A stretch of DNA of 64,000 nucleotides, from assembly GCA_028622995.1 (NCBI GenBank), contig JAJQJQ010000019.1:2914001-2978000 (forward strand). The letters are read 5' to 3'. Shown here one piece after another: positions 25,360-61,050 of the stretch. Origin of the DNA: Panagrolaimus kolymaensis (Eukaryota; Nematoda; Chromadorea; Rhabditida; Panagrolaimidae). The position numbers and the translations under genes are program-made. Numbering within the stretch: the first letter of the stretch is position 1; each line of letters starts with the position of its first letter. The notes under the pieces were generated by a model, which saw only the letters and a program-made list of their open reading frames with translations, was not told the DNA's origin and did not search any database.

Positions 25360-25917
25360 TTCCCTTCTTTTATTGATCTCGAAGAGATATATTCCAACAA
25401 GATGACATGTTAGAGATAACTGAAAAAAGTAGGCACAATGGGAATAATATGAATCTTTTAAAAAACATTAGTCACCAAAAACTACAATTTTCTGTTTAGA
25501 GAATTTTTTTCTAAATTTGTTTCTCTTCGACTTCACAAGATCCCAAAAAATTTATTAATTTCAAAAACAGTTTACTCTCAAACTCCCAGTCCCTCTTCTA
25601 AAACAATATATCCTTAAAACTAAGAATTCACTCATACCCAACTAAACTCTAATTTATTTTTAGAATTCTCAAAAAAAGTATATGTACATAAAAAGAAATT
25701 TATGTAAAAAAAACATAATTCAAAAAATGCCGAGGGTTTCTTTTTAATACCTAATTTTTATGCAAATTTACAACTAATTAAATTAATTTTAAAAACATTA
25801 ATTTTCAATCAAAAAAACAATTTCCCTTTCAAAAAATCAAGAAATAAAAAAAACTTTCTTTCTTTTCAAAGAGACAACACTCAGGCCTTTTCGCGATAAG
25901 AAAAAAAAAGGGGACAG

Positions 25918-25950
25918 AAAACAAACAAACAAACAAACAAACAAACAAAC
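25918..25950. repeat. (AAAC)n microsatellite
   Basis: About eight uninterrupted AAAC units. Confidence 0.95.
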
Positions 25951-26147
25951 GGACATATTTTTTTTGGACACATTTTTAGTCAAATCTCTAAATTTATAAA
26001 GTTTTTTTTCTGGATTTCTTTACAGATATAATCTATAGATGGTCTCTCATAAGTTTACAAAATTTCAGCTATAATTAATAAACATAAACACATGAATAAG
26101 CTAGTTGAAAAAAAAAAGAGATCTTGCGCTCAGTCAAGGCAAACTCA

Positions 26148-26191
26148 ACTTGGGCCAGCGTTCGCGCTTCGCGCTCACGCTGGCCCCAAGG
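26148..26191. repeat. GC-rich hairpin in AT-rich DNA
   Basis: CTTGGGCCAGCG pairs with CGCTGGCCCCAAG (one bulge) around a TTCGCGCTTCGCGCTCA loop. It is the only strongly GC-rich stretch for kilobases. It could be a fragment of a repeat or a structured RNA; there is no further evidence. Confidence 0.6.
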
Positions 26192-28018
26192 AAGCCCAAA
26201 AACACGGGCAACAAGAAAAAGTGCAATAAAAAATAAGAAAGAAAAAGTTAATTAAATTTAAACTTTTTAGGTTAAATCATTACTACTTCAAAGTGCTCAG
26301 TTTAAGAAAAAAAAGTACACTAATTTAGGCCAAAACAAAATAAAAACAAACTTCTATTTGGAACGCTCGAATTCAGTTTTTAACACCTTATCATTATGGA
26401 GTCCAGTTATAAATAATTTTTGATTCCTAATTAATCCAGCGACCCATCATCCTTTTTGGAAATCAATAATTTAGCTTTTTAACAACCACAAAGTTCATCA
26501 GGTCGCTATGGTTCAAAAACTAGACATCTCCTTTTTTTGGCAGTGAAAAAAGTCTCAAAAAATATTATAAAAATAACTTTCAACAAATTTAGTTAAAATT
26601 AACAAATTTAGAAAAATGAAGGAGCGGCCATGTATGTTTATAAAAAAATTAAGCTTCAACTCTTTTTTTCAGCATACATAAATGGGAAAATTTGGAAGAA
26701 ATAAAAAGGTTTTTGTTTACGCATTTCCAAACCATTAAATGACAGTTAAAACTATATTCAAAAAATTAAGAAAAACTCGGGAATGCCCCATAAAATTTTA
26801 TTGCCAGTTTATAATGAAGATCAAAATACATAAAGAAAATTCATTCCAAATTTTTGTAATACCCGCTCAACTATCTTGAAAGAATATTTAATACGGCAGC
26901 AAACATGCTCAGTTTTTTTACAATACCACAGTTTTTTTGGTTGGATAAATTCCTCCATTACATATTTAGTTTGCTAAATTCACAATAAACAGTTATCCTA
27001 AAAAATTGGGCAATCGTAAACCCATTTCGCAACAACCTATGTACATACATACATATAATCCCACTCACTCATATCACCTTATAATCATCACCAAGCTTAA
27101 CATCCACGTTCCTCAAAAATTTCAGTTATTCATTCATTCATTCAGTAAAGCAGTGGGAAAAAAAATTAATCATCATCATCTCACAAAAAATTTGCCAACG
27201 CCTTGTAAAATAAAAAAAGTAAAAATAAAAATTAGGTGTGTCTCTTTCTTTCTTCCACCGTCGAATAAAAAAAAATATTGTTGTCGTCGTCTCCGGAAAA
27301 GGAAGAAAGAAGGATAGCAGCGCCTTCATTCTTGAGAATGAAAAACAAATACATATAAAGTTTCGAAGAAGAAGCATTAGCAGCAGCAACATCAAAAAAT
27401 CAAATTCAAAAAAAGCAAAAGCAGAGGAGGAGGATTGAAGAAGAAAAAAACAATATAATGACAACACAAAAAAATAAAAAGCATTCATCTCGAGAATGGA
27501 ATTTTTTTAAAGCTTAACACAAACTTTTAGTTTTCATGATTGTCATCGTCGTTAAACAACAACGTTGTTAGCCATCCTATAGTTTTTTTTATGTGAGAAA
27601 ATGCTATGCTTTCTTGCTTCTTGCTGTATTTGGAAGAAGGGAATGAGAGAAGGAATTCAATCAATGAATAATCAATCGGTGATAAAAATAAATTGCAACA
27701 AAAATGATATGGGGAAAAAATTTGGCGGGATGAAGTTGTAAAGTAAAAGTATCGCTATAGCTTTCATTCAAAGCATGCATGCGAAAGATGAAGGATTATC
27801 ATAAACATGTAAGCATAATTGCAACAAAACTGTACAAGATAGAATTCGTAAACCAAGTGTGTCATTTTGCTTCTCATCTTGTATCGCCTCCAGAAAAAAG
27901 AAAATAACATATAAAGGATTAAGATTTATTATTACATAAACATATAAACCTAAATATTACACAATTATTATACAAACAAAAAGAATGTTGTTGTTTTCAT
28001 TTGAAGCATTTCACATCA

Positions 28019-36603: not shown

Positions 36604-38949
36604 TTATTGCCAACTTTTTTTTAATTCTTTGAAATGATGATCTTGTTGACCTTTAATATTAAAAAGCATATTATGTCCTAAAGTTGTTTTTAATTGTTGA
36701 ACCGCGGTGGAAGATTTTTGGCGTGAAATGCATAACTTAAATATACAGCATTCTTTAAATAATTTTAACACATGAATTCTAAAATCTTCATTGTAAAGAA
36801 GAGTAATCGTTGGAACACAAGTTGCATATCTAAAAAAAATTCGCAGGTAAAGTCGCTAATCTTTTTATTTTTGAAAATTGTTTAAACTCAAATAAAAAAA
36901 CTTACACAACTGTATTTAATTCAAATAAAGTAAACATAATATGTGTTTCAAAATCATTTAAATGTAAAGGTTCGATGAGACCCGTTAAAACTAATAAAAC
37001 ATTAAAAATTGTTACGGGAACTGCCATGGATTTAAATACCTACAAAAAAAAAAATAAGCATTGCTAAAGTTTTTAATTTTCGTTAAAAAGTTTCAAAAAA
37101 TATCGAAGTTTTTTGAAAGAAAAAAAACACGTCATAAAATTTTCTGCTCAGGCGAGAGAGAAATTTGCTTTAAAGAAAAATATTGTTTTTTAAAATTTAC
37201 CTTTGCAGCTTTAATATTTTCAGATAATTGAAATCTTTCACTCAGCGACATACTTTTATATTTTTGATATGCTTTTATGTTATTTGTGCTATGGAAATAA
37301 TATCGGCGTAAATCAATTCGTTCACAAATTAAATAAATCTAAAATTCAAAATTCAGTTAAAAATTTGTTATTAAACTCAGTTTTTTTATATATTTTTTCT
37401 GTAAATATTTGTGCAGTTAAAAAATTTATTTGTTATTTCAAAGTTTTGTCAGTTTTAAATTCGGGTTAAAAAAACTTACCATAAAAGCAGTAACATCCAA
37501 AACCAAAATAAAAAGTAAAATGAAAATTTCTTTAACGTCTGCTAAAAAATTTAATTAAAAACCCTCGTTCAAAGAATACAGTTTTTTTTACCTCGATAAT
37601 ATAAATACATTGAAAAGCAACTTAAAGCTAATTCAAGCATAGCAATTATTAAAGGAATATACGGGCGAGAAGTATATTCATAATCTTTAAGTAAAATGGT
37701 TGCAAATACTCTTTCCACAACCATTGAAGGCATACTGTAAGTTGCTAATAGCAAACAAAATCCACGCATGTAAGTCATTAAATAAAATATTTTATTTGTT
37801 GTTAATGAATCTTAAAAATTATGGTTATTTGGTTTGATTCAGTTTTAAATATACTTTTTGTTCGTAATTATTAGTGCTCAAAAAAATGTATCAAAAAAAC
37901 AAGGTTCATGGACCAATAACTTACTTACTCCAGTTTTTTTAATTGAAAAATTTTATCCAAAATTTACTCCGAAATTTTTTTTACTTTTTGATAATATTGA
38001 AAATATTTGTTTTTATGAACGCACAGTTTTTTTTATGAATAATTTTTTAGAAAATTACTATTATTTTTTGATGGAAAAGTAAATCGCCTTAGTTTATAAA
38101 AATTTAATTTCTTTTTGAATTATTTAAAAAAAAGAAGCATGTGAGTGATTCGAACTCAAACACGTCTAAACAGTTAAAAATCAATTATTTTAAATACAGA
38201 ACTCAGTTTTTGAACCTTTTCCCCAAAATATTATTTACAATCTAATCAAGGAACGTTTACAGTTTTTTTTATAGATTTTTTACTGCTGAATTTTTTAATT
38301 TCTACAGTTATTTATGTCTTAAAAATGAGGGACTGTAATTCAATATTCAGTTTTATGAAATCCTCTTTAATTTCATAATTATTACTAAAAGTTTCTCAAC
38401 GCCAACTTTAATTTAAAATTAAAGTTTTTATAAGATCTTTATTTAATGTTTTTGTTTCACAGTTTTTTTGTTTCAAAATTTAAAAAAGATCTCATTAGAT
38501 GATTCTCCGCATCAGTTTATTATATTTATTTTTGTTCCTAAAACCCTTAAAAATCTAAAATTTGATTCATCGAAGCCCATTCATTCCATCCTCGAAGTTT
38601 GATTAATGGAGTTTTTATTTTTTTAACCAATATTTTGCTTTTCCAGTTTCAAAAATTAATAAATGTACGTATGGGACATACCAATTTCATAATAAAATTG
38701 CATGAAAATTATGGCTGCACGAGAAAAAGCAGAAAAGAAATATTGAAATCCGAATAAATAAATCAACCATAACAAATTTTTATGAAATCTTGGAATTTTT
38801 GTGAAAGTATAAAGCGCAAAAAATATTATTCCAACAGCGATAAATGAAAAAATTATTTCTAAAATTGAAATAATTCCAAAAATATTTGTTAAATTTTCTG
38901 CTTCTAGGTAAGTTTTATTCATAATATGAACCAATAGAAATTGTTGCAT
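36604..38949 (-). CDS. Serpentine receptor, Sre-like (7TM GPCR)
   Basis: Nematode chemoreceptor-type seven-helix membrane protein, 348 residues, six exons (minus) 38949-38682, 37810-37592, 37541-37480, 37338-37201, 37039-36906 and 36829-36604. Telling phrases: MVVERVFATILLKDYE at the end of helix 3, LSERFQLSENIKAAK before helix 6, and YATCVPTITLLYNEDFR at helix 7. These are typical of class E (Sre) and the related Srb/Sra families. The length fits Sre (about 350). The ligand is unknown; such receptors act in sensory neurons in C. elegans. Exon 2 needs the acceptor TTTTTAAG at 37,811, which keeps helix 3 complete. Introns carry CAGTTT sites antisense to the gene. Confidence 0.85.
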
Positions 38950-41900
38950 GGTTTATATTTGGGGAAATATCTAAACAGACAAAGTTGAAGACAGTTTAAA
39001 AAAATTAAATAATTACAAGCAAAAAATAGCAGGACAGTTTAAACAAAATAAATTTATGAACTTTTGGTTCCGTTAAACAAACAATACTCCAGTTTTAAAT
39101 ATTATAAAAATAAATGGTGTTTTTAAAAAATAGAGATTTACCAAAGCAATTAACCAATTATAATTATTTTTTATAGCAACTGTAAAACTCTATGGTCGAA
39201 GACCTAATAAAAAATAAGCATGTTAGGAATTTATGCAAATTTTTTTAAAACACGGGAAAATAAAATGGCAGAAATCATGAATTTACATCCGATGGCAGTT
39301 TTTTTTTTCAACATAATTTTAAAATATTTATTGTTGTTTTTAGAAAAGCATAATAATATTCAATTCAGTTTAATAAAAAATATAACATTCATCAAAAAGT
39401 TCTCAGTTTTGAAATAAATAAAAAAAGAATGTCTTAATAATTCATTAAAAAAAGCAGGAGGCCGACGTTTAGCTAAAGAAAAAAAAACTACGAAGAAAGA
39501 AAGAAATGTTCGAGAAAAACAAACTTGGCTTTCTAAGCTTTTTTGTTGCTCTAAATAATTATTAGCTTAATTATAAATAGTCTCATCGAAGACAAACAAC
39601 TCATCATAACAATTTTTTCTTTTATATTTAAATGGGGGTTTTCTTCTATCAGACAGACTTAACTATGCCCAGACGCTAAAAAAATGAACGCAGTTTAATT
39701 TCTTCATAATTATAAAAAAATCTCAAAAGCTAAAGCAAGATATTTTTTTTTCTCATAAGAACTAATTGCTCAACAGTTAATAATTTATTTAAAAAAGATA
39801 GAAAATAATGAGCCAGTTTTGACTTACAAAAAATAAAAAGATTTATAAAATATTTCAAAATGAGAATATTTATTAAATTTTTGGCAAAAAAAATGTTAAA
39901 ATTAAAGAAAGCAAACGAAGCGACAGTTATATTCTCAAAAAAATGAAGCTTTTTTAATGACACGTCCCATCTCAAATTTGACTCCCAGTTTAAATCTAAA
40001 ATTTATTTTACTCCCAAATATTAAAAACCTTTTTTATGAACTACTTTCAGTTTAATTTTGTTTTATTTTAATTTTCCGAAAATTCATGCTTTATTTCAGT
40101 TTAATTTTATAATTGAATAACATAAAAAAACTTATCAAGATAGTTAATTCTTTTTAAAGTTAAATAATTACAAAATAAAAATAAAAGCCTACAGTTTTGA
40201 AAAAAAAGAGTAATTTTTTGCAGCCCAGAAGAAAGCATACAAAACTTTGCTATAGAGAAACAGTTTTTTTTAAATATTATTAACCCTTAAAAACCAAGCA
40301 GCAATTTATTCATTAATCAGAAATGAATTTTTCTAAACAACTTAACTCAAATAACCTAAAAAGATTACACAGAAAAAAAATTCTAATCCGTTATTCTTTA
40401 GACAAAGTATTTGAAAACACAAACAAAATATTTATTTATTTTTAATTTTAGAACCACCCAAAGACGCAGTTTATTTAATAAAACTGCTATGAAGTGCTGT
40501 GATTGTTTCAGCTAAAAATAAATAAAACAAAAAAGGTTGAGTTTTAATAAAATTTATAATAAAAATTTTGCATCGTATTTTTTTTTAACACATGCTTGCT
40601 TTTTATTTGTTTGGCAGAAAATTTATTTTTTACTTTTATTTTTGGGTTAAAGATAGAGAAAAATAACCTTTAAATATCTGACATGGCAGTTTAATAAAAT
40701 TAACAAAACATTTTATGACACAGTTTAAAAAAGCAAAAACAAAAATTTTGTAATTTTTAAAAGACAAAAATTGTGGAAAAAATAAATTTTTCAAATGCTC
40801 GATTTACCATAACACAAATTTGTACAGTTTTGTATTTAAAAAATTCTTCTGATTGAAATTTTTGGACAGCTTTGAATTGAGAAATTAATTTTGCCACACT
40901 ATCGAGATTCAGTTATTCTTGGAAAAAATTTTAAAAAATCCTGGGTTTGATATTTCAGTTTTTAAATAAATTTTTCCATCTTTTCTTTTTTTGAAAATGG
41001 TTCAAATTGAAATTATGAAAGAATAGCTTTTTAACAACTCAAACTCAGCTTACCTAACAAAAATTTATAATGACTAGAAAAAAGCTTGCAATAAAAAAAA
41101 ATTTGAGTCATTTCAATGCGTGATTAATAAAAAATTAGTTTAACTTTGTCCCCTTCTACAAGATTCTAAAAGAAAGGTCAGTTTTTATATATAAAATTTT
41201 TAAAAATGAATAAAAAAATTTCAGTTTTTTGGCGTATATTTTATGGTCGAAAAAGTGCAAAAGCAGTTTTAATAATGAAAATAAAAAATAAAATAAAAGT
41301 CTTTTTAAACTTTAAAAGAAAGATGCCGAAGCAGTTTTTTAATTATAAAAAAACTAATAAATTACTATGTTAGTCAACAAATAAAGTCCTTTAAGAAATT
41401 CTCCCTCCAGTTACAAAAAAAATAATAAGAATCTTTGGAATAATAATAAAAAATAACATTCGCTGCTGCTTTTAAGCTTTTAACTTATTTTTCACCTGTA
41501 TCTTTGTACAATTGTTCTTTTCCTCATCAAATTGCCCAAAAATATAATTTATAATCATAAATCAAGTTCAATTAAAAATTCAAAAAAAAAGAGTAACTTT
41601 ATTTGGCAAAAAAAGGGGGCAATTCAAAGAAGCGAGCGCCAAACAGGTGTTTTATTATTGAAAAAAATGTCAAAGAAAAAAAACTTTTTGTAGTGAAAAA
41701 TAATAAAATTTTATTTTTTTTTCTTACAATAAATATAATATGAATTTCAGTTTTAAAAACCTGTGTTTAAGTTAAGGTATAATTACAGCAATGAAGAAAT
41801 AAATTTTTCAGTTAAATCTACCACACATTTTTAATCTTTTGCACCTTTTTTTAAAATAATTTTGTGAAAACAGCAAAAACATTGACTGCATCGGAGACAG

Positions 41901-42547
41901 TTATGGACCTTAAATAAATAATTATATATGTATTAGTTGGCTGGATTAATTTGAAGTATGTAAAAGAAAGAAAATTCAAAGCTCTTTAAAAAAATTTAGA
42001 ATAAAATAGTTTGCAAAAGAAAAAACCTATCCCAGTTTAAGAATAAAAGAAATTTAAAAAAATAATTCGTGGAAACTCAAAAAATGTGAACTATCGTTTC
42101 GAAATACATTTTACCGAAACGCCATTCTTTCTTCTGAAAAATTCCGACGTAAGTTTAAAATAATTTTTTTTATTTAGTTAAAACTTTTAAAATTTTAACT
42201 ATAAAATGACCAAGCTTTTTTTAACCCAGTTTTTTTTATTATCTAATTTTTATTATTAAATTTATTACACCAAAAGCGAGAGGAGTTTCAGTTTAACCTT
42301 TTTTTTTATTTTTAAAATGATTCATATCCGATATCAAACTACAGTTAAAATTGTAAATTCTTTCTGCTAAGTTATAGCTTATTCAGTTTTTTTTTTAATT
42401 TTTGATGGAAAATACAATATCTAACATCAACCAAATATGGTGCTCCAGTTTTCTTTTATTTAACTTGGATTCACAAAAGGTGAACCCTGTCAGTTTTTTT
42501 TAAATTTTGCTGTCCAAAAATTTCATGTTGTCAGTTTTATTAAAATA
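38950..42547. other. Intergenic DNA filled by the CAGTTTT array
   Basis: No gene supported on either strand; longest frames are low-complexity Phe/Lys/Asn. The stretch consists of array units of block 4. From about 41.7 kb the DNA has a decayed second copy at 48.8 kb. Confidence 0.6.
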
Positions 42548-43495
42548 TTAACAATATTTACATGTTTTAAAACAATTATATTTCATAATTTCAAAATAAA
42601 TGCGATCAGTGCAAAGGAAATTATTTGCCTCACAAAAATTATCATTAAAAATATTTTTGCATTTTGAACTTTTGACATTCAAGGAAAGAGTTGGGCAGCA
42701 TTCATTGTCATCGGCACAAATCATATTTCCTTCACACGTGCCATTTACGCAAGCTGAAAAAATTAAATGACTTATTTGGCAAGGTTAATGGAAAACATGT
42801 TGCAGTTTATAATTAAAAAATAATTTTATGGGTTGTTTTTACTAAAAAACGATGAAATCAACTGAAAGCTTCTGAGAAATTTTCCAGTTTTTTTTATAAA
42901 AAAATGATAAAATAAAATTTTTGCCGGTGGCTGTGATGTGGCAGTTTTACAAATCAAACAAGAGATTTGGTATTCAGTTTTTTATCTTAAATAAAAAATC
43001 AAAGAAATTGCTGTCAACAGTTTATATTTGAAATGAAAATTAAACAACATGATGACTATGACTGGCCGTCAATGGTCAACAGTTAAATAAAATTTTTTTT
43101 TACATTTATGAATTGATTCTTTATTGCTTCGCTTTTTTTATTGAATTTCAGTTAAAAGTACAAAAAAAAAATACTGGTTAAATAATTACCAAAAAAAGTT
43201 ATGTAACAGTTTTTTTATATTTAAATATGATCTTTTCAATCATTGTTATTTCTCTTTAAAAATTCAATCCTATCTTCTAGTACAAAAACAGTTTATATTC
43301 CTCACAAATATTAAATTTGCATCTTGAAAAGGTCGTAAAAATAGTCACAGTTTAAAATTTTTTAATTAAAAGACGTCCTTTTTTTTAAAGTCACTTACGT
43401 CCAGCTGGATTTAAGCATGATGGCGGTTGTTGAGTTAAAACAATAATAAATAAAGCTGCAAAATATATAAATAATAATAAAAATTTTGTTAACAT
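42548..43495 (-). CDS. Small secreted ShKT-domain protein
   Basis: Secreted Cys-rich protein of 100 residues, exons (minus) 43495-43399 and 42753-42548, separated by a 645-bp intron full of array motifs. A signal peptide (MLTKFLLLFIYFAALFIIVL) is followed by a Cys-rich segment with CADDNECC and then a C-terminal ShKT (SXC) domain: NFCEANNFLC, YFEIMKYNC and KTCKYC. ShKT domains are abundant in nematode secreted proteins, alone or joined to enzymes, and are structurally related to sea-anemone channel-blocking peptides; nothing here shows a channel target. The intron has good GT..TTTTTCAG sites in minus orientation. It was too short for a continuous open frame. Confidence 0.85.
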
Positions 43496-46400
43496 TCCTT
43501 TTATTTTTTAGTTTTCGATTGTTGTTGTACCACCACTCCCACGAACAATAACAAACACCTTATGACCTTCCTTTCTTTTACTCCCGCTCGCTTGCTTTTT
43601 ATCAATCAAAAAAATAATTGGCTTTGCTTCCATTTTTATAGTCAGTTTTTATTGCCACGTTTTTCTTTTTATTTTATTGTTGTTATCCTCCCAAAAAAGT
43701 AATTAGTATGGCAGTTAAACAAAAATTAAATTTTAAGAATTTAAATATTTTAATTTTGATTAACATGCTGCCTCAGTTTTTTTAAAACCGCACCGAACTT
43801 TTCTTTTCCTCTGTCAGTTTTAGGCTTCTTTTTTTCTTCTTATTTTTAAGGGTTCAAAAGATCCATGTTTTTTTTAAAACGTAGGAGCTGGAACACGAAT
43901 CAATGTTCTTTTATGATTTTGACTTAAAAAAAAGAATGATAAGATTTTGAGTAAATGAATCACGAGAACATGAATTCAGCTGTTAGGATTCCGCAGTTTT
44001 TTTTTTGTTTTTTACATTTTCCTTCGATTCTTTATCTTTTAAACTTCCGGAAAGGAAAGATGGAATTTAAAGTATTTATTTCTTTGTTGGTTAAATTCAA
44101 CAACAGTTAAAAAATAAGTCTAAAATAAAGAATTTAACTACAGTTTTTATAATTGTTTCCAAAAAAAGTTTTCGGTTTCAGTCTTCTTTTTAAAAATTAG
44201 TAAAAATTAATTCCAGCTGCTATACAGTTTTAAAGGATTATTATTTCTCTAAAATTATGGCTGCTTATATTTGCTCCACAAACACGCCCTGATCCAGTTT
44301 TAAATTAGAAGGGTTTCTTACCGGATTCTATTTCCTGACAGTTTTTTAAACATCATATATGTGAATGGGATATTTTTTTCTAATTATTTCTTAGACAAAT
44401 TTTGCCTGCTTGTCCAATTTTAAAGTCAACTACAAACCATGCAGATTGATTATAACTTTTCGGTTATTATTAATGCCACTGTGCTTGTAATTTATTTCAA
44501 AGCGAAGATTATTCATATAAAGTTTTTTTTAATTATCAAAAATTTACAAAATGTAAAAGTTATTTAAAAATACTTCACAGTTTTTAAAAAATCGTAAAAC
44601 TAGTCAGAATTATGGCAAATGTTTGCTGCTCCACAGATAGATTCTCCAGTTATAATTCTAAACGCTTTTCTAAACAGGTTCAGTTTTAAAGGACAGTTTT
44701 TTTAAATTAAATTATAATGGCACTTTTTATATACCACGCTTGTCAACTACCTGTTTAAATGCTAATACAGTTTTAAATTTAATCATTCTGCAAACCAATC
44801 AAATTGATTATTACCAAACAGTTATTAAAAAATCTTGAAAAATTTGACGCTAAACAACAACTCCAGTTTTTTGTTTATTTGTTTTAGACCGGTGACGTTG
44901 GAAAGCAGTTTTACAAATATTCATTTTGTTGATGCAAATCTTTTCTTTCTTAAGCCATCCCTTCTTCTAAAACAGGTTGTCACAATTCCGTGTCATTTTA
45001 CTTTTTCATTCACAAAAAAAGGAAAAGAGAAAATTTGCATAAACTTTTCTTTCTCATTTACAAAAAAATGAAAGATTGTTTGAGAAACATTTATAAATTT
45101 TCATATTACAACAAATTTATTTCTGCAACACCGTTTTCTATCATAACATAATGAACTATACATTTACTCGCGCGCCGAAGGCGCGCCCCTTTTTACTAGT
45201 TATAATTAAAAGCAATAAAGTTGATAAACAGTTTAAAAAAATATTCAAAAATAAAATTTGCATTTGACCGCGATAGTCTTTTCTTTTTATATTTAGTTTT
45301 AATTTTTTTTTGTAAAATCCCAAGTCTTTTTATGGCATACATATGTCAGTTTTAACTTTGACACACATAAAAAAATTTCACGTATGAAACATAATTTGTT
45401 TGGTTTTCATCTCCCACATTCATCATCTTCAGTTAAAATACTAACAATAAAATTTTTTTTTCTGTTTCAATTGTTGTTTTTTGAAAATCATTATGTTTCT
45501 AAAATTATGAACGGAATATTGTATTTTCAGAAACAGAGGATATCCAGTTTTAAATTAAAAGGGTTTCTCACCGGATTCCTTCTCTACAACAGTTTTTTTA
45601 TTTCCATTATAATGGCCCATTTTTTTATACGTGGTTTTTCAACTATCGATTTAAATGTTATCCAGTTTTTGAAATAAATTTATGCAAACCATTCTGATTG
45701 ATTATTTTTATCAGTTATTTTCAAAGTCATGATTAATTCACCTCTAAATTAAAAATACTATTCCATTTTAACATTTTTTTGTTTGTTTTGTTTGTTTCAA
45801 ACTTACAATGCTGTATCAAACACAGTTATGAATAGGCTTTTACATAACTTTATTACGAAGGAAAAAAAGGTTCTACTCCTAAATTTAAGAAAAAAATCAA
45901 TTTTGTTTGATAATGTGTATTACAGTTTTTATTATAAAGTAACAAAAAAAACATCGTTTATAAATTAACGATAGCTGAAATGATTACAGTTTAAAAAAGT
46001 TAAAAATAAAATTTACAATACCGTAAATAATGATCATCAGTTTTTTTATTTTTTAGTTTAAATGTATTATTATTTAAAAAAATACCCAATCCTTTATCCG
46101 ACACCAGTTTTAATTTTGATAAACTTTAAAAAATCCACAAGGAAATTATGCATAATTTGTATGGTTTTTATCTTCTGCTGCTTCATCAGTTAAATAATAA
46201 AAAAACTTTTTTGCGTGTTTCAGTTAATAAAATTTTTAATTTATTTTGATAAAGATCCGAATTTTTACCAAAAATCCCAACATTAGTTTAGGTTATTCAG
46301 TTTTAATTTTTTAAAGTATAAATTGTGATTACCGCCTGTTTCGCCGTTCTCTTTTTTTTTTTTTTTTTGCATTTTGCTTCGATTCTTTTTTTGTTTACTT

Positions 46401-47998
46401 TCCAGAAAGAAAACATGGAGTTTTAAGTATTTATTTCTTTTTTGGTCACATTGGATTCTAAACAATGAAAAAGTAAAAAATGAACTATGTTGCAGTTTTT
46501 TTTGGTCAAAAATTATTAGAGATTAACAAAAGGTGAAAAGGTCGTAAGAAATGTTTTACAGTTTTAAAGAATCGCAACTTTACCAAACCTACAAGATTTT
46601 ATTCAGTTTTAAAAAATGTTTTTTTAATTATTTGAAATTTACAAAAAGTGAAAGGTCAATTCCTAATGATCAACAGTTTAAAAAACTCGTAAAATTAACT
46701 TAAATTATAGTGGCTGATGTTTGATCCTCCACAAACTGCTTCAGTTTAAAATCAAAGACTTTCGCACCAAATTTATTTCCCAGACAACAGTTTTTTTTAA
46801 AGTCCATTATATATAATGTTAATTTTTTTATTTCTAGCTTCTCACAAAAATGGCTAAACTTTTGAACCAGTTTTAAATTCAACTTCTCTGTTAGCCGCGT
46901 TTATTATTAGCAATCAGTTATTTTCAAAGTGTTTGTAAATTTATTACCACTAAATGACGACCGTGCCCAGTTTTTTTTTGTTTCATTCTTGCGATATGGA
47001 CAGACAACAGTTTGTATAAATTTTTATTTTGAATAAGCTTTTGCAAAAACTTTAATACAAAGTAAAAAAAGTTTTAAACATAAACTTAAAAAGAAAAAAT
47101 CCAATTTTAATTTAAAAATACAGTTTTTTTTATAAGTTCTCCAAAAAAGTTTATATATGAAAAGTGGTAAAAGGATCAACAGTTTACAATATTTAAAAAT
47201 AAAATTATTTTCAATACATAAATTATGCTCAGTTTTCCTTTTTTTATTGTTTAAAAATATTGTGGAAAACCCTAAGTGTTTTTTTGTACCAGTTTTAATT
47301 TCGACAAACTTTAAAGATTTTATAAGGTGAAAGCATAATTTGTCTGATCTCAAAATTCATCTGCAGTTAAAAATTATTTTAAAAAACACTTTTTTTGTGT
47401 TTCAGTTAAAATCTGCTTTTTAATAATTTTAAAAAGGTTTAAATTTTTAAACAATAAAAATTACACTGTACAGTTTTCTAAAGAATTTAGTAATTCTTCA
47501 GTCTTTTTGTAAATAAATTCTTATAACCCAAGAGTCTCGCAAAAAGGAGTGATATCAAAAATAATCAAAATTTTTTACATATATAAAACACCCGTTCGCA
47601 AACATTCTTATCAGTTTAAAATTAAAAAAAATACATGAAAAATAAAAGTTCAAAAAATGATTCTACATAGTCAAACTCAAAAGAATCAATGTCATTCATT
47701 TATTTGGGTGGTTGCAAAAGCAAAAAATAGCAGCGACAGTGAAGTCTTGAACCAATTTATTATTTTCTTTGTTATGCACTTTTCTTGTTTACCAAAAAAA
47801 CGTTTTCTTTACTTCTTCTAAATTTGGAGAAAGGTTAAAGGAAGAATGCGCTAAATAAAAAAATAAAAACCAATTTGGGTTATTTTTTCTTTTTTTCTAT
47901 CTTTGAAAAAAATAAGTTTTCTTATCATTTGCAGTTATATATTAATACAACCCAATTTTGATACTTTTATTCCTTTTTAAATTTAAAAGAAAAGAAAA
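43496..47998. other. Array DNA of duplication unit A, no gene seen
   Basis: Motif array with internal ~1.2-kb repeats (starting near 44.2, 45.5 and 46.6 kb). Relics of short frames appear but differ between copies. A 17-bp GC-rich hairpin is at 45,170. The 300 bases before 47,999 are related to those before 51,494 and presumably hold the promoter of the Tyr/Asn-rich gene. Confidence 0.55.
45170..45186. repeat. Perfect GC hairpin GCGCGCC-GAA-GGCGCGC
   Basis: A 7-bp perfect stem with a GAA loop inside very AT-rich array DNA; followed by CCCTTTTT. It could be a terminator-like or repeat relic; no further support. Confidence 0.7.
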
Positions 47999-48520
47999 AT
48001 GATTCTCAAACTTCAGTTTTGTTCTTATTTATTTTTTATTTCACTTTTTGTTGTTATTGTAAATTCTCAATATTCATATAACAATAATTATTATTATCGA
48101 AATTATGGACCCCAGCAACAACAATCCTATTATCAACAACCTGGAACTTACAATTACCAACAGCAAGGTTACAATAATGGATATGGATATAACAATAATT
48201 ATTATCAACAGCCTATGAATTACAATAATCAAGGAGGTTATTCTGGCTACAATTACCAACAACCCTATAACTACAATAACAATTATTACCAGCAACCATC
48301 ATCAAGCAGCTATTATAATAATGGATATTATCCATCTTCAACTTATTATCCTTATGGCTCATATAATTATGGAAGAAACGTATTTTCTGGACAAACTTCT
48401 CAAGGATATAGTTATTATGATGGAAGAACAAGAATTTGTGCACCTATGACGAAAATATGTATTTTTGGAAGGTGCACAGTTAAATGTGGTGGTGATACTT
48501 TTACCACATTTGGTAATTAA
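47999..48520 (+). CDS. Tyr/Asn/Gln-rich secreted protein, copy 1
   Basis: Single-exon gene, 173 residues, unrecognised. A signal peptide (to about residue 23, ending VVIVNSQ) is followed by about 115 residues of low-complexity Tyr, Asn, Gln, Gly and Pro (units such as NYQQQGYNNGYGY, YYQQP), a more ordinary stretch GRNVFSGQTSQGYSYYDG, and a Cys-containing tail with RICAPMTKICIFGRCTVKCGG (five Cys if written in full, split here as RICAPMTKIC and IFGRCTVKCGG). Tyr/Gln-rich secreted proteins are often structural (cuticle, silk-like, adhesive); that is inference. A TATA-like TATATATT lies upstream (~47,938) and AATAAA follows the stop. A second copy is at 51,494. Confidence 0.7.
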   Translation: MILKLQFCSYLFFISLFVVIVNSQYSYNNNYYYRNYGPQQQQSYYQQPGTYNYQQQGYNNGYGYNNNYYQQPMNYNNQGGYSGYNYQQPYNYNNNYYQQPSSSSYYNNGYYPSSTYYPYGSYNYGRNVFSGQTSQGYSYYDGRTRICAPMTKICIFGRCTVKCGGDTFTTFGN

Positions 48521-51451
48521 ATAAAGAATTTATGATAAAATAATAAGAATTTTTTTAGGTTAAAAATTTTTTTATCAAGTAAGCAGTTAAATTAATGAAA
48601 AATGAGAATATAATGATGTTGAAGTACACAGTTTAAAAAAAAATTTAATTTAATGGAACTTATTTTATTTTTGCTCTGGTTGAATCTCGAAAGTTATTAA
48701 ATTTCGTTGTAAACAGTTTTAAAAATAAATATTTAATTTGTCCCAGTTTTTTCTTCTCAAACAAGTATGGGGAAAATATTACCTACAGTTTATAATTATT
48801 TTTGTACAAAAAAACCTTCCAATACTTTTTATGCTTAAATTAAGCTATAATTTGTAGCAATGTAAAAATAAATCACAGTTAAATAAACACACGCATTAAT
48901 CTTTTGCACATTTTTTTATAATTTTCTAAAAAATAATAAAAACAAGCTTCTCTGAACTCAGTTTTGAATTTAAATTAATTATATACGGTTGGCATAATTT
49001 TGGATGAAAGAAGAGAGAAAATTAAAAAAGCTTTTATAAAAATTAACATAAAATAGTCGCAAAATAAAAGCGTTCAGTTATGGTAAAAGAAATACATCAC
49101 TCCCCAGTTTCAAATATAAAATTATGGAAATTGAAAAAAATGTGAAATTTCGAGTTAACCCAGTTTTAGCTTAAGATCATTTTTTCACAAGTAAATTTCA
49201 ACGACAGTTAAAAATGATTTTTCACGAACTTATTTAGTTTGAAATTTAAAAAGCTTTGCTATAAACCGATAAAGCTTTATTTACGCAGTTTTTAATTATT
49301 TTTTCTTTAATCTTTATTAAATTTATTTCCTCGAAGAAGAAGATAGTGACAGTTTTATTATTTCTAAATCCCTATCTCACTTCCATCCAACGCCAATTAA
49401 AATTGTAAATCCCTTTTACCTACCCATTTAAATTATATCCAGTTTTTTTCTTCTAATTGTTTTTGAAAGCATTCCTCAAACAAACTAGACCACCTCCAGT
49501 TTTCTTCTGTTTTATTTTAAGCTGGAATCAAAACCCATTTTCAGTTTTATTTATTAAAGCATTTTTTAAAAATAAACAATATTCTCAATTTTTAAAATAA
49601 TTAGTTTTCATGGTTTCCAATAAATGCGATTAGTGCAAAGGAGATTATTTGCCTCACAAAAATTATCATTAAAAATATTCTTTCATTTTGAACTTTTAAC
49701 TTTGTCAAAAATTATTAGAAATTAACAAAAAGTAAAAAGGTCTTAACAAATGCTGTACAGTTTTAAAGAATCGCAACTGGGTGAATATTCAGTTTTAAAG
49801 AATCCTCAATCAATTAGACGGGAAAATATGGCTGTTTATTACTTCCGTACACATTCCGTTCCAGTTTTAAAATCAAAGATTTTTTCTAACCATATCCATT
49901 TCTAAAGAACAGCTTTTTTAAAAGTCCATTGGAATGGCATTTTTTACGAATCACTTCTATGCCGAAAGATGATTGTTAAGACAGTTTTAAAATCAATTTC
50001 TTGATCAACATGAAGACAGTTTTTTTTAAATATCTACTGTGATTGTAATTTAATACAAGCCGACGACCACTTATCCAGTTCAGTTTTTTTCATTATTAAA
50101 AATTTACTAAAAGTTAAAGGCTATTTTCGAATGTCAACAGTTAAAAAAACTCGTAAAATTAATTAAAATTATGGCTGATGTTTTTTCGCGTCAACAAGTC
50201 CCTCCAGTTTTAAAATCAAAGGCTTTCTAACCGAATTTATTTCTATCCAACAGTTTTTTTTAAAGTTCATTATAAATATTTTTTATACAGCGCTTCTCAG
50301 CTAACAATTTATATGTTGATTCAGTTTTATATTTAATCTCTCTGCAAACTTTTTGCATTATAGCTAATCGTTTATTTTTTAATACATACTGATGGTAATT
50401 TTTACCTGTAAAGCTAAAATTAATCATGTACAGTTTTTTTTAAATTTCCTAACCTCACAACGTTGATACGCAGTTTTATAAATATAATATTTATTTTTTG
50501 ATGCTTCAACAAAAGCTTTATCATGGCAATAAAAAAAACCTACACATAAAATTTAAAGAAAAATCAATGCGTTCATGAAAATAAATTACAGTTTTTTTTA
50601 AATCACCAAAAAAGCCATTATAAATAAAAGCAATAAAGCTGATAAACAGTTTAAAAAATTATTAAAAAATAAAATTTGAATAGACAATGAAAGTCTTTTC
50701 TTTTTATATTGAGTTTTAAAAAATTCTTTCAAAATTCCAAGTAATTTGCCACGCGCCAGTTTTAATTTTGACATACTTAAAAAAATTGACAAGGAAGAAA
50801 CATAATTTGTTTGATTTGAAACTCCAACAACATCTTCAGTTAAAATACTAATAATGAAAACCATTTTTTCTGTTTTTGTTGTTCAACTTTGTAATTTTAT
50901 TTAAAAGATTATATTTTTACAACAACAAAAAATCGCTGCATCAATTTCCGTATCAGTTTTGATTTTGAAAAATTGTATAAAATTCTAAAAACTCGAAAGA
51001 GTTTATTTTAACTCAGTTTCTTTATTGCAAAAAAAAATCTTATAACCCCGAAGTCTCTCAAAGCAGTGAAACCAATAATGACCACAATTTTCTGCACTTA
51101 TAAAAAAAAACCAAAAAAAAAAATAAAAGTACGAAAAAACAAAAGTTCATAAAAAAGTGGATCTTTCTACGTAGTCAAACACAAAAGAACCCATGTCATT
51201 CATAAATTCGGTTGAATTAGTTCAAAAAGAGCAAGAGCAAAAACGACAAAAGAGCAGTCTTGAATCAATTTTTTTTCTTGATTTTTTGAGTTTGTTGTTA
51301 ACTACAAAAATCCTCCCTCCCCATTTTTTATTCCATCAGTCGAAAGTTTAAAAGAATTCGCTAAATAAAAAAAATAAAAATATACTACGGTATATATTTT
51401 TTTCTAAGAATAAAAAAGGTTTTCGATCGCAGTTATAAATAGCGCTCCATT
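48521..51451. other. Array DNA of duplication unit B
   Basis: Motif array without supported genes apart from the ShKT fragment. Two closely related internal repeats at ~49.79 and ~50.14 kb show aligned CAGTTTT sites. Confidence 0.55.
49619..49703 (-). pseudogene. Fragment of the ShKT gene in unit B
   Basis: On the minus strand, about 85 bp closely match 42,680-42,597, the part of exon 2 that encodes the CEANNF...C segment. The rest of the ShKT gene (signal peptide exon, N-terminal Cys region, final TC..C) is not recognisable nearby. It marks the duplicated unit. Confidence 0.75.
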
Positions 51452-54899: not shown

Positions 54900-57800
54900 C
54901 CTACCACATTTCTTAATTAGATAAAAAGTTTGATAATGACAAAATAATAAAAATATTTTTTTAAGGTTAAATAGATATATCGCTCACAGGCTGCTATTAA
55001 ATTAATGAAAAAAGAGGATAAGATGGTGTTGTTGATGAACGCAATTTAAAAAAAAAAATTGATTTGAATTTTATGGAATTTATTTTATTTTGCTTTGGTA
55101 AAATCTCGAAAGTTCTTCACAGTTATAAAAATAAATATTTAATTTGTCCCAGTTTTTTCTTCTCAAACAAGTATCGAGAAAATAATACCTACAGTTTATA
55201 ATTATTTTTGTACAAAAAAACTTTCCAATATTTTTTAAATGGAAGAATAAAATAATCATCGAAGTATATATATGCAAATGGAACAGGAAATCACAGTTAA
55301 AAAAGATTTTTTATATAAAATTATAAACATTTTGAAAGAAAATAAACAAATTTTATGAGAATCTAAAAATTTGTGAAGCTTAAAAAGAAAGAATAGTATT
55401 TTCGCATGAGCTTAATACAAATGGCAGTTTAAATAAAAAGAAGATATTGTAGCTGAGAATTCCACTTTAATCTGAATATAACATTATTTTGATCCTCAGT
55501 TTGCTTGCTTTTCTCTCGCTTAAATTTCATTTTTTCAGTTTAATAAATTTAATTTATAAATGTCTCAACTCTTGGAATCGAAAAAATAAAAACGTTTCAT
55601 TTTAGCTTTTGAAAGTTGATTAACTTTTTCAGGATTCATAAAAAACAAAATTTTACAGTTTTTAAATACAATAAAAATGCTCCAATTAATTTGCACTAAT
55701 ATTTCTTTTATCCCTTCTAGTCAGTCATTTATTCAGTTTTAAAAAACAAAAAAAACTTTTTTTTGAGTAAAATGTTAATCTCTTTTCGTTTCTTAACTTT
55801 CTTTCGGACGCAGCTCGACCGTGCGCAAACTTAAAAAATAAAGTCAGTCTCCTAATCATCATCTTTGTCCACCCTCTCTTTCTTTCTTCCATTCTATATT
55901 TCTCACTCGCGCGCATGGAAGAATAAACAAAAAAAAATATTTAGAAAAAAAATCCATCTCTCCAAGCAAGTGGTTTCCGTAATCATTAAAGTAAGTACTT
56001 TTTGAACGCTTACACAGCCAAAGTGAAAAAAAGAGAAGCTTTTTGCGAGAAATGAAAAGAAAGTGGACAAACAACAATCGCCAATGAGTCGCTTTTTTGA
56101 CGACAAAAAAAATACCCGGAAGCTAATAAGAAGTGAGAAACAATGATTGTATAATTGATTTTCGTCTTCTTCGTTAAATCAAATTGTAATTATTTTGTTT
56201 CAATTTTTTCGTTTTTTTAAACTGATATCAGAATAATTATTGTAATTTATTTAATTATTTATGATTTTTAGTTTTTTACATTTTCTGGATCAGATAAATT
56301 TTTTCTTTCAACTAATTTTTTAACTGCGAACACTTGGAAATCAAAAAACAACTTTGTCTCATTTTGAGAGATTTTTATGAAGCATTTTGATTTATCAAAA
56401 AAATTATTTTATTATCTAAAACTGTATTTCATTCTGTTTTTTGAGATAAAAGAAGTCTCTTTGCTTTGTTTATTTTTTTATAACTGCGAAAAAACGGTGC
56501 CATTATTTTAATTTATTTTTTTAGATTATTTTTCTGGACTAAATATTGAAATACATAAAAGCATATCTTTTTCAATTAAATAAAAACTGTATACAAAAAA
56601 ATTGAGAAAAATGAGTCAAAACTGTAATACTTTGTGAACACTTTTAAGATGCAATCGATTTTATAACTTTTTCGATCTTTTATTTTCTCAAATTAAAAAC
56701 CTTGCTTTTTTTATTTTTCAATGCTTTTATTATTTTTTTTAGAAACTGTTGCCATAAATTTAAAGTTGTTGATTCGTATATATTTTATTTTTAAAACTGT
56801 TTGTCTTTTCTTTTCGGTGTATCAAAAATCAAAAAATTTAAATTTGTTATTGTTTATTCCTTTATTTCGGCCTTTATCCGAGTTTTTTTGGGGTAAACAA
56901 CAATCTTTTTATTTTTATTATATCCTTTTCCGATCTGATGATCGCTCACCCACCGAGCAAATTATTTATATCTCTGTATCCTTCTCATGGAAAAAATTTA
57001 TTTTGATGGTGTCGGTTTTATTATTTTTTGAAAAAAAATATACATAATAAAATCAGTTAATTTTGATCTCCGCATTTTTGAAAAAAAAGTCAGTCGAAAG
57101 AGAATTTATTGTCGCCGCTGCCGCCAAAAAAAACTTTTCTCCATAAAAAAGAAACAACATCAAAAAATTTTTTTTATATAGTTATTTATATTTTGGCGCT
57201 GCGCAAGCAGGCAGGCATAGGAAGAGAGGAAGATAGGATTGTCCTTGACCGATTCAAAACATCAATTCAATTTGATTTGATTCTCGCATAACGTAACTCT
57301 TTTTTATTTTATTTTTTTCACTTTATTTTTGAATTTTAAAAATAATGACTGATTCTTAAATTTAGTAACTGTATGAGAATTTTTAAAGATTAATTAACTG
57401 TGGGTTAGTTTTGGGCTTAAGCTTCTTTTATTTTAATAAACTGGCCAAGTTCATTTTTATCAATATTTAAAACTGATATTTATATGATTTTTATTTTAAC
57501 TGAATTTTTTTTATTAATGTTGGTTGTATTCATTGTGATAAATTTTTTTCTTCTGGAAAAGAAAGTTTCGCCTCAAATGAAATATGGAATATTTTTTTAA
57601 AACTGTAGGAATTTAGTAATTTTTGTAATCAAAAAAACTGAGTACTTTTTTATATTTTTTTGCATTCCTGTAAACTGATTTTTTTTTTTGCTTTCGTAGC
57701 CTCACTACAAACACATTAAAATAATTATCTGTTTTTCATTTTTTTTAAATTCTTTAAATTGATAAAAACTGCAATTAAATTTTTTTACTAAAAATTAAAC

Positions 57801-58568
57801 TGTATAGTTTTCAAATAAATTTAAGGCAAAAAAAACTGTCTTCCATTATCTTACATTTATTTTTATTATTTAAAATGAAAATTCAATTTTCTTAAAAACT
57901 GTATCACTTTTTTAAGACTTGCAAGGTTTTTAAAATTTTTTAAAACTGACGTTTTCTTTTAATTGTTGAAATCTTTGTTCTTCTTTTCTAATCAAAATAA
58001 TTCATAATTTTTAAAAACTGTATCTGGGTGTTTCTCCATAATCACCAAAGCTTTCAAAAGAATTTTTTTAAAAACTGCCTTCTATTTATTTTATTCCGAA
58101 CCCTTTATTTTTTTTGGGTTATTTTTCCCGTTCAAAAACAGATCTCATAAAAATGTCGAACATTCATTCATTCATTCTTTTTTTCTTCGATAACGACTTC
58201 TTTAATTTCTTTCTTTATTTATTTTTTCTAACGGTTTCTTTCTTTCCGTGTTCCATTCGACCGACTTCCTGCTGATTTTTTATTTTAAACTCCTTCCTTT
58301 ATTTTTTCGAAGAAAATATCCAATGAAAATGACCTTCATTTTTTTTTCTAACTTTATATTTTTCCGGGAAAAAAAGATAGATAGATAGATCGATGCTTTT
58401 GTGAAATTTTTTTTGTTATTTAATACTTTTTTTATAAACTGTAGTTTTCAAACACGTTATTTTTTAGGCATAAATTTTTTTTTGGCGGAATATTTTTTTA
58501 ATGGTGGTATTTATTTAAAAACTGAATATTCTATAGTTAGATTTTAATTTTTTTGGCCCTTCAAAATC
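54900..58568. other. Intergenic region, orientation switch of the array
   Basis: 54.95-55.3 kb is the start of a third duplication unit with CAGTTTT. The last + strand sites are near 55,735. From about 56,220 the motif appears as AAACTG on the + strand. Around 55.75-56.15 kb the array is interrupted by more mixed DNA (Ser/Lys/Arg frames on the minus strand, unsupported). A (GATA)n run of about four units is at 58,375-58,392. No gene supported. Confidence 0.5.
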
Positions 58569-61050
58569 ATGTCAAAATCTTTAATTATTTACTCTCTCAT
58601 TATTTTTGTGGGAATAGTCAAAGCTGAACCAACATGTTTTAATTCGGGTGAATTGGCTGGAGTAATATTTGGATGCATTTTTGGCACCGTTTTAATTACC
58701 ACCGCTTGTTATGCGATATTGGCATTTTTTACATATAAACATAAAAAAGGTAAAAAAAACTGAAATCTTTAAAAGCTTGTTTTATTAAATAATTTTTTTA
58801 GCCCTTAAAAATCAAATCTTTGAACGAGCTCATGGCACTCAAGAAACTGATTCCAGTATTTCAACTTTACATGATTTTTCTGAAAAAGGAATTACCACGG
58901 ATGCAGTGGAATTTAAAAATAAAGTTTCAATGAAAGATAAAGTAAGTTTTTCAAAGCAAAGAAAATTTTTTTTTATAAAAAGATTAAAAAGAAGCGGCGA
59001 AGAACAAAAAAGGCAAAAAACGATTGCCCCCGGTGAGGCTCGAACTCACGGCCTTCAGATTATGAGACTGACGCGCTGCCTACTGCGCTACGGAGGCGGC
59101 GATTTTAAACATTAGAAATAAAAAATTTTAATTGAAAAGAAGTTTAGCTTCACAATTAATTTAAAAACTGAATAAATATTTCTTACTTTTGTATTTTTTA
59201 AAACTGATAAATATTTTGGAGGCTTGAAAATATAAAATTATAAACTGAGCACGTTTGACTTAATTAGCATTTTTTTTATAGGAAACTGAAGTAGCTATGC
59301 CAACTCCATTACCTCGTCGGAAGGGTCCATTAACTCCTAAAGGATCCTTAGACTCATCTCAACGGTCTCAATCATTAAATATCCTTAAATCCGCTGATGA
59401 TAATCGACGAGAAAATCAAGAACGTGCATTATCGAATTTTGGATTTAGTATTGGCGGAAATGAATATGAAGGAATTTTTATTGATAAAGTTTTGCCTGGA
59501 ACTCCGGCAGAGTTATCAGGAAATATATTTCCTGGAGATAAAATTAAAACTTTAACTATTGGCTTTGATGAAATGTCGTATGATGAAGCGTTGGCTATTT
59601 TAGCTTTAGTCACAGAACACACAATTCGATTGGATTTAGAGCGAATAATAAAATTGGATGAAGAAACTCAAACTGAAGGAGGCTCAATAAAAGCTGATAT
59701 GAGATTACCCTTAAATTTGCTAAAATCATTTTCAATGAATACCATTCGCCGAAAATTGGAAACTTGCCCACATCGAAATTTTGGTTCCCTTGAACATTTG
59801 GATCCTCAAATTCCAGCTTTACCAAAGAAGAAAAAATCAAGCAACAAAAATATTCCCCTTCCATCTTGCAAACATTGTTTTGAAGAAGAAAGAATAATCA
59901 AAGTTGTGAGACATTTGGGTGGAAAAATTAAATCCAATCTTACTGTAACTTCTGAAGAATCATCCGAAGATGAATCAAAAAAACAAAAACAAAAAAATAA
60001 AATTCCTCCTGGGCATGGATTAATAAGAGCTGAAGAATTTGATAAAAGAATAAAAAATTCATTAAATATTGAAAGTCAAGCATTGAAAATTTCTTCTTTC
60101 ATCACTCCATCATCAAGTGGAGCATCATCACAAAGTTCAGAAGAGGAAAGCTTAATGGCGGGAGAAATGGGAAAAGTAAGTGCTTTATTAATAAATTTAT
60201 AACCGTGCACAAGGAAGCCGCTGCGGCAACTTTCTTTTGATGTAGCAGAGAAAATGTAAACAAACAAATAAAAATTAATAAACAAAAAAAACTGAGGAAT
60301 GTTATTCTAAGCTGAAAAAAGTTACTTCTTTTTTTTCTTTTCTTCATGGCAAGCAGTAACTTGTTGTTGGGCTTCTTATTTAATTATTGTATAAAAAAAC
60401 TGTATTCTTCAAATATAAATTTAAGTTTTTATTTTACCACCTAAAACTGTTGATAACTGAGAATAATTTTTATAAAAAAACTAAAAAAAATTTTGGGATA
60501 ACAACCCTTGTTCTTTCTCTCGGCTTTGTAATTTTTGTTGTTATTAAAACTGAGTACGAAAATAGAAAATTATATGAATTGCTTTTTTAATAACTGTAAA
60601 GAACAAGAAAAATTTTTTAATTTGGTTAAGTTTTTGTGGCCATTCACATGCTTTTTTTTTACATTTTTTGTTTGTTTAAACTGTACTTGAATTCCATTTA
60701 AAGTCATTAAACCCTTTTTGAATAAATCCAATAGTTTTGAAACAAAAAATTTAAGATTTTTTTTATATTTGTTTTTAACTGTGAAAAGTAATATCTTTTT
60801 TGGAGCTTTTCAAAACTGAGTCAAAACTTTACCATTGCGAATCAAAGAATTCATAAAAGATCAAAAATAAATCTTTGCTCACAAAAATAAAAATCGTTTA
60901 ATAAACTTTTAATAAATTTTTAATTTTAAACTGGATACTGACGCGCTTATTGCAATTCACGCGATAAAATAAGAAAAATATGATAAAAACACGAAAAGTG
61001 CTGTTCGCGTCTTTACCAAAGACAGGCTTCAATATTTTAATAAAACTGAA
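56220..61050 (-). repeat. AAAACTG array, block 5 (motif on - strand)
   Basis: AAACTG on the + strand at intervals of about 30-75 bp; example positions of the C: 57769, 57800, 57836, 57899, 57946, 58018, 58075. The A/T-only run lies before the motif and the mixed segment after it (for example after 58018: TATCTGGGTGTTTCTCC). It covers the upstream region and the introns of the PDZ gene, in which it is sense-strand AAACTG, i.e. opposite to the relation in the TGF-beta gene. Confidence 0.8.

Follow-up and report, generated by a model that had tools for sequence, protein, structure and literature searches.

Oriented AAACTG arrays with fast-diverging 20-nucleotide bodies in the nematode Panagrolaimus kolymaensis, a candidate array of small-RNA genes

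Background and comparison with described small-RNA systems

Panagrolaimus kolymaensis is a parthenogenetic nematode in which a 64-kilobase (kb) window of genomic DNA, C18:2,914,001-2,978,000, carries a dense array of short oriented units marked by CAGTTTT on one strand and AAACTG on the other. We compared this array with the small-RNA loci of other nematodes and, in genome scans covering 265,843,910 bases in 807 contigs (named C1, C2, etc.), with the remainder of an assembly that is described as triploid (PMC10374039). How transposons are controlled without PIWI-interacting RNAs (piRNAs) in nematodes outside Clade V is an only partly answered question, and the array maps a candidate system of piRNA-like scale, visible from sequence alone, in a lineage reported to be piRNA-less.

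Type-I 21U-RNA loci of Caenorhabditis elegans carry the Ruby motif, CTGTTTCA, about 40 nucleotides (nt) upstream of the guide. The C. elegans piRNA loci occupy two 3-Mb regions (PMC6436959), and weak selective pressure is described for Caenorhabditis piRNA sequences (PMC9683057). Clade IV is reported to have lost PIWI and piRNAs (PMC6436959 and PMC4323106; also PMC9203780 for PIWI). With predicted microRNAs set aside, an earlier survey detected no class with a 5'-U bias in nematodes outside Clade V (PMC4323106). Two members of Clade IV are described as having other small RNAs. In Strongyloides ratti, for which no PIWI genes are reported, 21-22U RNAs arise from loci that are partly transposon-derived, lie on the same strand within clusters of 1 and 2.7 Mb and have AT-rich sequence upstream (PMC9203780), and 5'-G RNAs of 22-26 nt are reported from Globodera pallida (PMC4323106).

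The array would work like the C. elegans type-I loci but fails their defining sequence features. Shared with those loci are the thousands of putative tiny units in multi-Mb domains, a short conserved motif that would act as promoter, a poorly conserved guide-like segment and, in base composition, an apparent AT-rich drop past it. The array differs in several respects: AAACTG abuts the variable body directly, whereas CTGTTTCA lies upstream of the guide; no YRNT peak is present; and the body outpaces the flanking DNA, unlike the Caenorhabditis piRNAs described above. In the 64 kb, CTGTTTCA occurs twice on the plus strand and never on the minus strand, and CTGTTTC (core GTTTC) seven and three times, respectively. 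The comparison with C. elegans piRNA loci made in a preliminary description of this DNA holds as an analogy but not as membership: the array has neither Ruby motif nor YRNT, its geometry is different and Clade IV is reported to be without PIWI and piRNAs.

The closest functional relative may be the 21-22U RNA system of S. ratti, with which the array shares Mb-scale same-strand clusters, an upstream AT tract and membership of Clade IV. It differs in its strong AAACTG motif, as none was found upstream of the S. ratti loci (PMC9203780). If its first nucleotide were the G of CTG, a guide would also look much like the products of the nematode 22G-RNA/WAGO system; however, 22G-RNAs are copies of their targets made by RNA-dependent RNA polymerase (RdRP), whereas the guides here would be genome-encoded one by one. 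Such guides may start with G and could therefore be counted as RdRP-made 22G-RNAs or missed by 5'-U RNA screens. Our searches of the open-licence PMC literature, with result lists of limited length, turned up no description of such arrays for Panagrolaimus.

An oriented array in the window

CAGTTTT occurs 132 times on the plus strand and 41 times on the minus strand of the window, 173 sites in total, where dinucleotide frequencies predict 28.3 for the two strands together. Among all 6-mers and 7-mers, the top z-scores belong to CAGTTT and CAGTTTT, respectively. Between 36.5 and 51.1 kb, 88 copies of CAGTTTT face a single AAAACTG, while 200 first-order Markov simulations averaged 4.4 and 2.6 copies and never exceeded 11 and 8. 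When the looser WWAACTG (W is A or T) was mapped, 293 of 307 sites fell in the dominant orientation within six blocks, with four in the opposite orientation and ten outside blocks; the block limits were drawn after the site map had been viewed.

6888..11494, minus strand: array block 1, 32 WWAACTG units in a single orientation; overlaps a TGF-beta-ligand exon on the plus strand (TGF_beta domain)
13265..16915, plus strand: array block 2, 30 units in a single orientation
20466..27129, minus strand: array block 3, 39 units in the dominant orientation and 2 opposite; surrounds a cytochrome-b561-like exon
37334..50960, minus strand: array block 4, the block singled out in the preliminary description, 146 units in the dominant orientation and 1 opposite; 10.7 units per kb
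55100..55740, minus strand: array block 5a, 8 units
56218..61068, plus strand: array block 5b, 38 units in the dominant orientation and 1 opposite

The oriented CAGTTTT/AAACTG array is thus confirmed as real in the sequence. The preliminary description had proposed blocks of one orientation each; the counts above bear this out, with a strong strand bias within blocks and a CAGTTTT excess over the dinucleotide expectation. Its sample positions (42,233, 42,295, 42,348, 42,390, 42,452, 42,497 and 42,538) are correct. Its last block, at 56-61 kb, does contain the array but is divided in two, at 55.1-55.7 kb on the minus strand and 56.2-61.1 kb on the plus strand. The spacing of about 30-75 bp that it gave describes 197 of 390 gaps between neighbouring units (30-74 nt) but not the remainder, the median being 71 nt. 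Units seldom overlap, the 5th percentile of spacing being 32 nt, and AACTG is depleted within bodies.

Spacing near multiples of a helical turn, also proposed, was not recovered. Seven periods were tried on 354 gaps, and those of 10-12 bp gave p values of 0.057-0.46 (0.27 at 10.5 bp); the best period was 9.5 bp, at an uncorrected p of 0.007. Autocorrelation of A/T tracts in the array had no peak near 10 bp, as judged by inspection.

Anatomy of the unit

The two-part unit noticed earlier can be sharpened to a W tract, then AAACTG, then a 20-nt body directly after CTG, at offsets +7..+26. GC content is 0.085 in the A/T tract upstream of the motif (-5..+1) and 0.286 in the body, compared with 0.225-0.227 in the flanks. 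Within the body, GC-rich zones at +8..+13 and +22..+26 enclose a minimum at +14..+17, and GC steps down from 0.33 at +26 to 0.22-0.25 at +27..+29, a purely compositional profile; an AT tract also closes the unit on the other strand. T is under-represented at +8 and G over-represented at +22..+26, while offsets +24, +25 and +26 weakly prefer T, T and G. Offsets +27..+60 exhibit AT-richness without a conserved element, and a search for a second downstream motif by expectation-maximisation motif discovery returned only further AAACTG copies, as it did in a far-downstream control.

Divergence of motif, body and flanks between homoeologs

Homoeologous copies allowed the parts of the unit to be compared within two contig sets, C3, C18 and C40 for one region and C5, C20 and C23 for another. 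Body rates were set against circular shifts of the site positions (1000 shifts in the C3/C18/C40 pairs), flanks, columns far from units and stretches mostly outside blocks. Segments below 75% identity (72% in the shift test of the C5/C20/C23 pairs) or above 97%, as well as non-dominant strands, were left out, and tracts above 97% were treated separately.

C18-C3: body divergence 0.163, null 0.088, z 10.7 (211 units)
C18-C40: 0.219, null 0.116, z 11.5 (135 units)
C3-C40: 0.206, null 0.142, z 5.8 (84 units)
C20-C23: 0.158, null 0.078, z 5.9 (78 units)
C20-C5: 0.188, null 0.094, z 6.5 (52 units)
C23-C5: 0.222, null 0.111, z 8.6 (65 units)

In all six pairs the body exceeded its shifted-position null, by a factor of 1.45 to 2, and none of the 1000 shifts reached the observed value in C18-C3, C18-C40 or C3-C40. 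The AAACTG motif, on the other hand, lay under the null in every pair (z -1.4 to -4.8), and the immediate flanks were close to it (z -2.2 to 2.5). The excess is not tied to one base: in C18-C3, offsets +7..+15 were faster for all four bases, and A<->T exchanges alone were faster at +7..+14 in each of the six pairs (21-76 events per pair). Eight other WWAANNN words, with 10-21 sites each, had no consistent divergence effect when compared at 79-97% identity with a shared motif and an ungapped body (85 of 209 units). Diverged paralogs within block 4 behave similarly to the homoeologs, with 0.33-0.37 in the body and 0.25-0.28 in the flanks (68 aligned shared sites from 19 overlapping alignments).

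Under similar rules, 23 of 87 ungapped units with a shared motif had at least four body changes. The following units illustrate such rewriting.

38493..38519, minus strand: TAAACTG plus 20-nt body; against the C3 homoeolog, body 11/20, motif 0, 30 nt upstream 1, 33 nt downstream 2 substitutions and 2 gaps
7293..7319, minus strand: AAAACTG plus 20-nt body; body 10/20, motif 0, 30 nt upstream 1, 33 nt downstream 1
39346..39372, minus strand: body 6/20, motif 0, 30 nt upstream 2, 33 nt downstream 0
Window position 59,200: rewritten unit; body 7, 30 nt upstream 1, 33 nt downstream 3
Window position 50,763: rewritten unit; body 7, 30 nt upstream 0 substitutions and one gap, 33 nt downstream 2

Among the 66 C18-C3 units with at most three changes in 60 flanking nt, bodies averaged 1.52 changes per 20 nt against 0.44, and the body counts were over-dispersed. 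Rewriting under a constant body length was not supported, as gapped windows were found for 90 of 207 bodies and for 89 and 83 flanks.

The body is not uniformly fast. Pooled over 420 unit comparisons in the C3/C18/C40 set, divergence was 0.17-0.24 at +7..+14, 0.11-0.17 at +15..+18 and 0.15-0.22 at +19..+26, and this fast-slow-fast order recurs in five of the six pairs. For a guide beginning at the G of CTG (+6), these zones would correspond to nt 2-9, 10-13 and 14-21, which by our interpretation resemble the seed region, the central region and the 3' portion of a guide bound by Argonaute.

Mutation, conversion and mobile elements

Two tracts only 1-2% diverged, with 23 in-block units, had body changes in 1 of 460 columns, compared with 60 of 3743 elsewhere (Fisher p 0.012). 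Near-identical tracts thus exhibit no body excess, whereas hypermutation predicts the reverse; this argues against plain or standing hypermutation of bodies, on a small sample in which the tracts are perhaps recent conversions. The substitution spectrum is broad and not deaminase-like, with transitions making up 0.33-0.52 of changes in body zones and 0.33-0.42 in flanks.

Cassette conversion between units was rejected, as the rewritten bodies had no close donor among 826 bodies, bar one homoeolog and one paralog. For 46 alleles, best donor distances were mostly 5-9 of 20, slightly below those of 300 shuffled bodies; the 826 bodies are a minority of the genome's units, and donors elsewhere are possible. 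A mobile-element reading was not supported, as most units are common to the homoeologs, with the motif intact in 155 of 207. Many of the units without an intact shared motif differ by one or two motif letters.

At window positions 11148-15546, identity to C3 leaps from 80-89% to 98-99% over short distances, and these abrupt leaps suggest recent conversion or homogenisation between subgenomes.

Distribution in the genome

A strict three-unit pattern matched 73 times in the genome, against none for its reversed control. These matches are spread over multi-Mb stretches on the two homoeologous contig sets, with 14 on C3, 9 on C5, 7 on C18, 14 on C20, 15 on C23, 2 on C40 and 6 on C42. Of the six others, five lie on five small contigs, where the listed ones resemble main-set matches, and one lies on C7. 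The C7 match (G000:C7:3393266-3393349) belongs to a repeat with GCTCCGCTCCAGTAAAACTG that is apparently unrelated, with similar sequence at C2:9754654. The two array regions may be linked, given that one of the listed matches close to C18's low end is similar to a match on C5.

A looser three-unit pattern gave 243 matches against 3 for its reversal, and among the 100 matches listed, 99 were on C3, C5 and C18 and one was on C8. The short word TAAAACTG occurs 30,042 times in the genome against 25,728 for its reversal, and 54 times in the window. When this excess is scaled by the 54 TAAAACTG per 307 WWAACTG in the window, with backgrounds assumed equal, we arrive very roughly at some 8,000 units, that is several thousand, per haploid copy.

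The proposed small-RNA gene explanation and its rivals

Judged from the DNA itself, the data are best explained by an array of small-RNA genes with the AAACTG strand as the one read, and we consider this account probable. The preliminary description had seen in each unit a short promoter followed by a short transcribed sequence; the conserved motif, the sharp-edged 20-nt body and the multi-Mb domains favour this proposal, with the units as candidates. TG is a YR initiator. Each unit would be a tiny autonomous small-RNA gene, with the AT-rich tract and AAACTG as core promoter or initiator, and transcription would head away from the W tract, starting at or beside the T or G of CTG. The product would be a guide RNA some 21-22 nt long that takes its 20 variable nt from offsets +7..+26, and the transcript would end where AT-rich DNA resumes. 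The multi-Mb domains would house several thousand of these units in each haploid copy. The guide region would have diversified faster than its surroundings, most where the Argonaute seed would lie, with the promoter retained. We infer transcription, its strand, the 5' end, Argonaute loading and selection as the cause of the divergence from these patterns.

Without PIWI, an absence taken from the Clade IV literature and not from this genome, an Argonaute of the AGO or WAGO type would take up the guides. The genome contains 143 Piwi-domain matches, and pieces of the best 30 of these fall into 11 groups, some of which (L031 and L034) are apparently wrong-frame. When one member from each of four of the 11 groups was compared with solved structures, three (L014, L027 and L012) matched AGO proteins best, while L036 was ambiguous (plant Ago10 33.5 bits, QDE-2 32.7, Siwi 32.4 and human AGO2 30.3).

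It is possible, though we hold it only tentatively, that the array is a PIWI-independent, genome-encoded guide repertoire of thousands of single-unit genes with their own AAACTG promoter, in which the guide has diversified faster than neutral DNA, seed-like zone first. It would then amount to an RNA-based immune repertoire that is inherited and has diversified adaptively. Whether guide repertoires are under diversifying selection could be tested naturally on the 20-nt body, which diverges faster than its flanks.

Several observations weigh against small-RNA genes read from the AAACTG strand. YRNT frequency is flat at 0.04-0.12 over +7..+99, without a peak, in 348 sites. A two-unit pattern occurred 599 times in the genome against 539 for its reversal, so two units alone are not distinctive genome-wide against that control; among the two-unit matches listed, four are on C1 and C2 and all later ones on C3. 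Homoeolog pairs sharing a contig set are not independent. Plain paired tests were only suggestive for 49 ungapped shared-motif units (p 0.07 and 0.095), and 58 units gave p 0.08 and 0.03. The central trough is absent in C20-C23, and the last five body nt are not significantly fast in either C20-C23 or C3-C40 (z 1.1 in each). The strand itself is ambiguous, as the opposite strand reads body-CAG-TTTT, conceivably a transcript ending in a U-run. In the literature on Clade IV, piRNAs are reported absent, Panagrellus redivivus included (PMC4323106). No convincing target emerged: 285 22-mers compared with the window and non-homoeologous loci gave little beyond shuffles, a search of low power, and one 22-mer scanned genome-wide at up to three mismatches matched itself and one three-mismatch place, again at low power.

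Rather unlikely in our view is an account without acceleration, in which the bodies evolve neutrally and constraint acts on the remainder of the array, an AT-rich promoter with pausing tracts. Its units would remain small-RNA genes, only with drifting guides, so this account overlaps the one preferred here, and it accords with the strongly AT-rich flanks and with the little selective pressure described for Caenorhabditis piRNAs (PMC9683057). However, columns labelled far from any unit diverge by 7.8%, like the unit flanks (8.0-9.6%), and stretches mostly outside blocks by only 2.3-3.9%, exons and homogenised tracts included. The A<->T changes, which preserve AT-richness, are also faster in the body, and the two bodies with 10-11 of 20 changes stand beside 30 nt upstream with one change.

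Small-RNA genes on the opposite strand are also unlikely. Their RNA would begin at the far body edge and end in CAG-UUUU, with CAGTTTT as terminator or processing signal. The fixed order body-CAG-TTTT agrees with this arrangement, as does the T, T, G bias at +24..+26, which would place C, A, A at the start with an initiator-like CA. Against this, no conserved upstream element is left, the +27..+60 segment being AT-rich only, and a conserved terminator without a promoter would be less usual.

An improbable alternative is a protein-bound motif array serving chromatin, pairing or replication. AAACTG would be the site bound, the bound protein or a stalled polymerase would make the adjacent 20 bp a mutational hotspot, and no RNA would be made. 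A conserved, oriented motif abutted by the fast zone would be expected from such an array, but the zone is one-sided, 20 nt long and has an internal dip. The broad substitution spectrum, the recent tracts without body excess (23 units only) and the lack of helical phase also speak against it.

Periodic An/Tn clusters (PATCs) or a nucleosome-positioning code, the chromatin option of the preliminary description, are very improbable: the array resembles C. elegans PATCs in being AT-rich non-coding DNA with recurring AT tracts, and 9.5 bp was the best period tried, but with neither a 10-12 bp phase nor, by inspection, a 10-bp A/T-tract peak the option is unsupported, and it predicts neither the orientation nor the hypervariable 20-mer found here instead.

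Other features of the window

Genes lie between and within the blocks. SLC25-like mitochondrial carrier genes occupy 2000-5900 and 12100-13050, apparently three in tandem and a fourth beyond block 1; one piece was confirmed as Mito_carr and the others were assigned by eye. An open frame of almost pure Gly-Cys repeats at 31211-31927 lies in a kb with a GC content of 0.46, above its surroundings. It is followed at 33260-34939 by an exon for a BRM/SNF2-type ATPase that contains an acidic internal repeat. This exon is also present on C3 (about 100% identity) and on C759, C386, C227, C728 and C42 (98%), with diverged copies (84%) on C3, C40 and C80. The best BRM matches in other organisms were 74-87% identical, and the named nematodes included Globodera pallida (74%), Ascaris suum (70%) and Plectus sambesii (77%), in keeping with a nematode source and against a first assignment to Meloidogyne; a published M. 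incognita microRNA precursor had no match in the genome, an empty answer that carries no weight by itself.

Within block 4, at about 42570-43450 on the minus strand, a small spliced gene encodes a Cys-rich, ShKT-like secreted peptide (by eye), and its main exon is without a unit. A 756-aa gag-like open frame at 52065-54335 has weak DUF7083 and zinc-knuckle matches, below Pfam cut-offs. It is flanked by similar pieces of a Tyr/Asn/Gln-rich secreted-protein frame (47987-48520, 51443-51724 and 54538-54810), and looks like an insertion into one secreted-protein copy.

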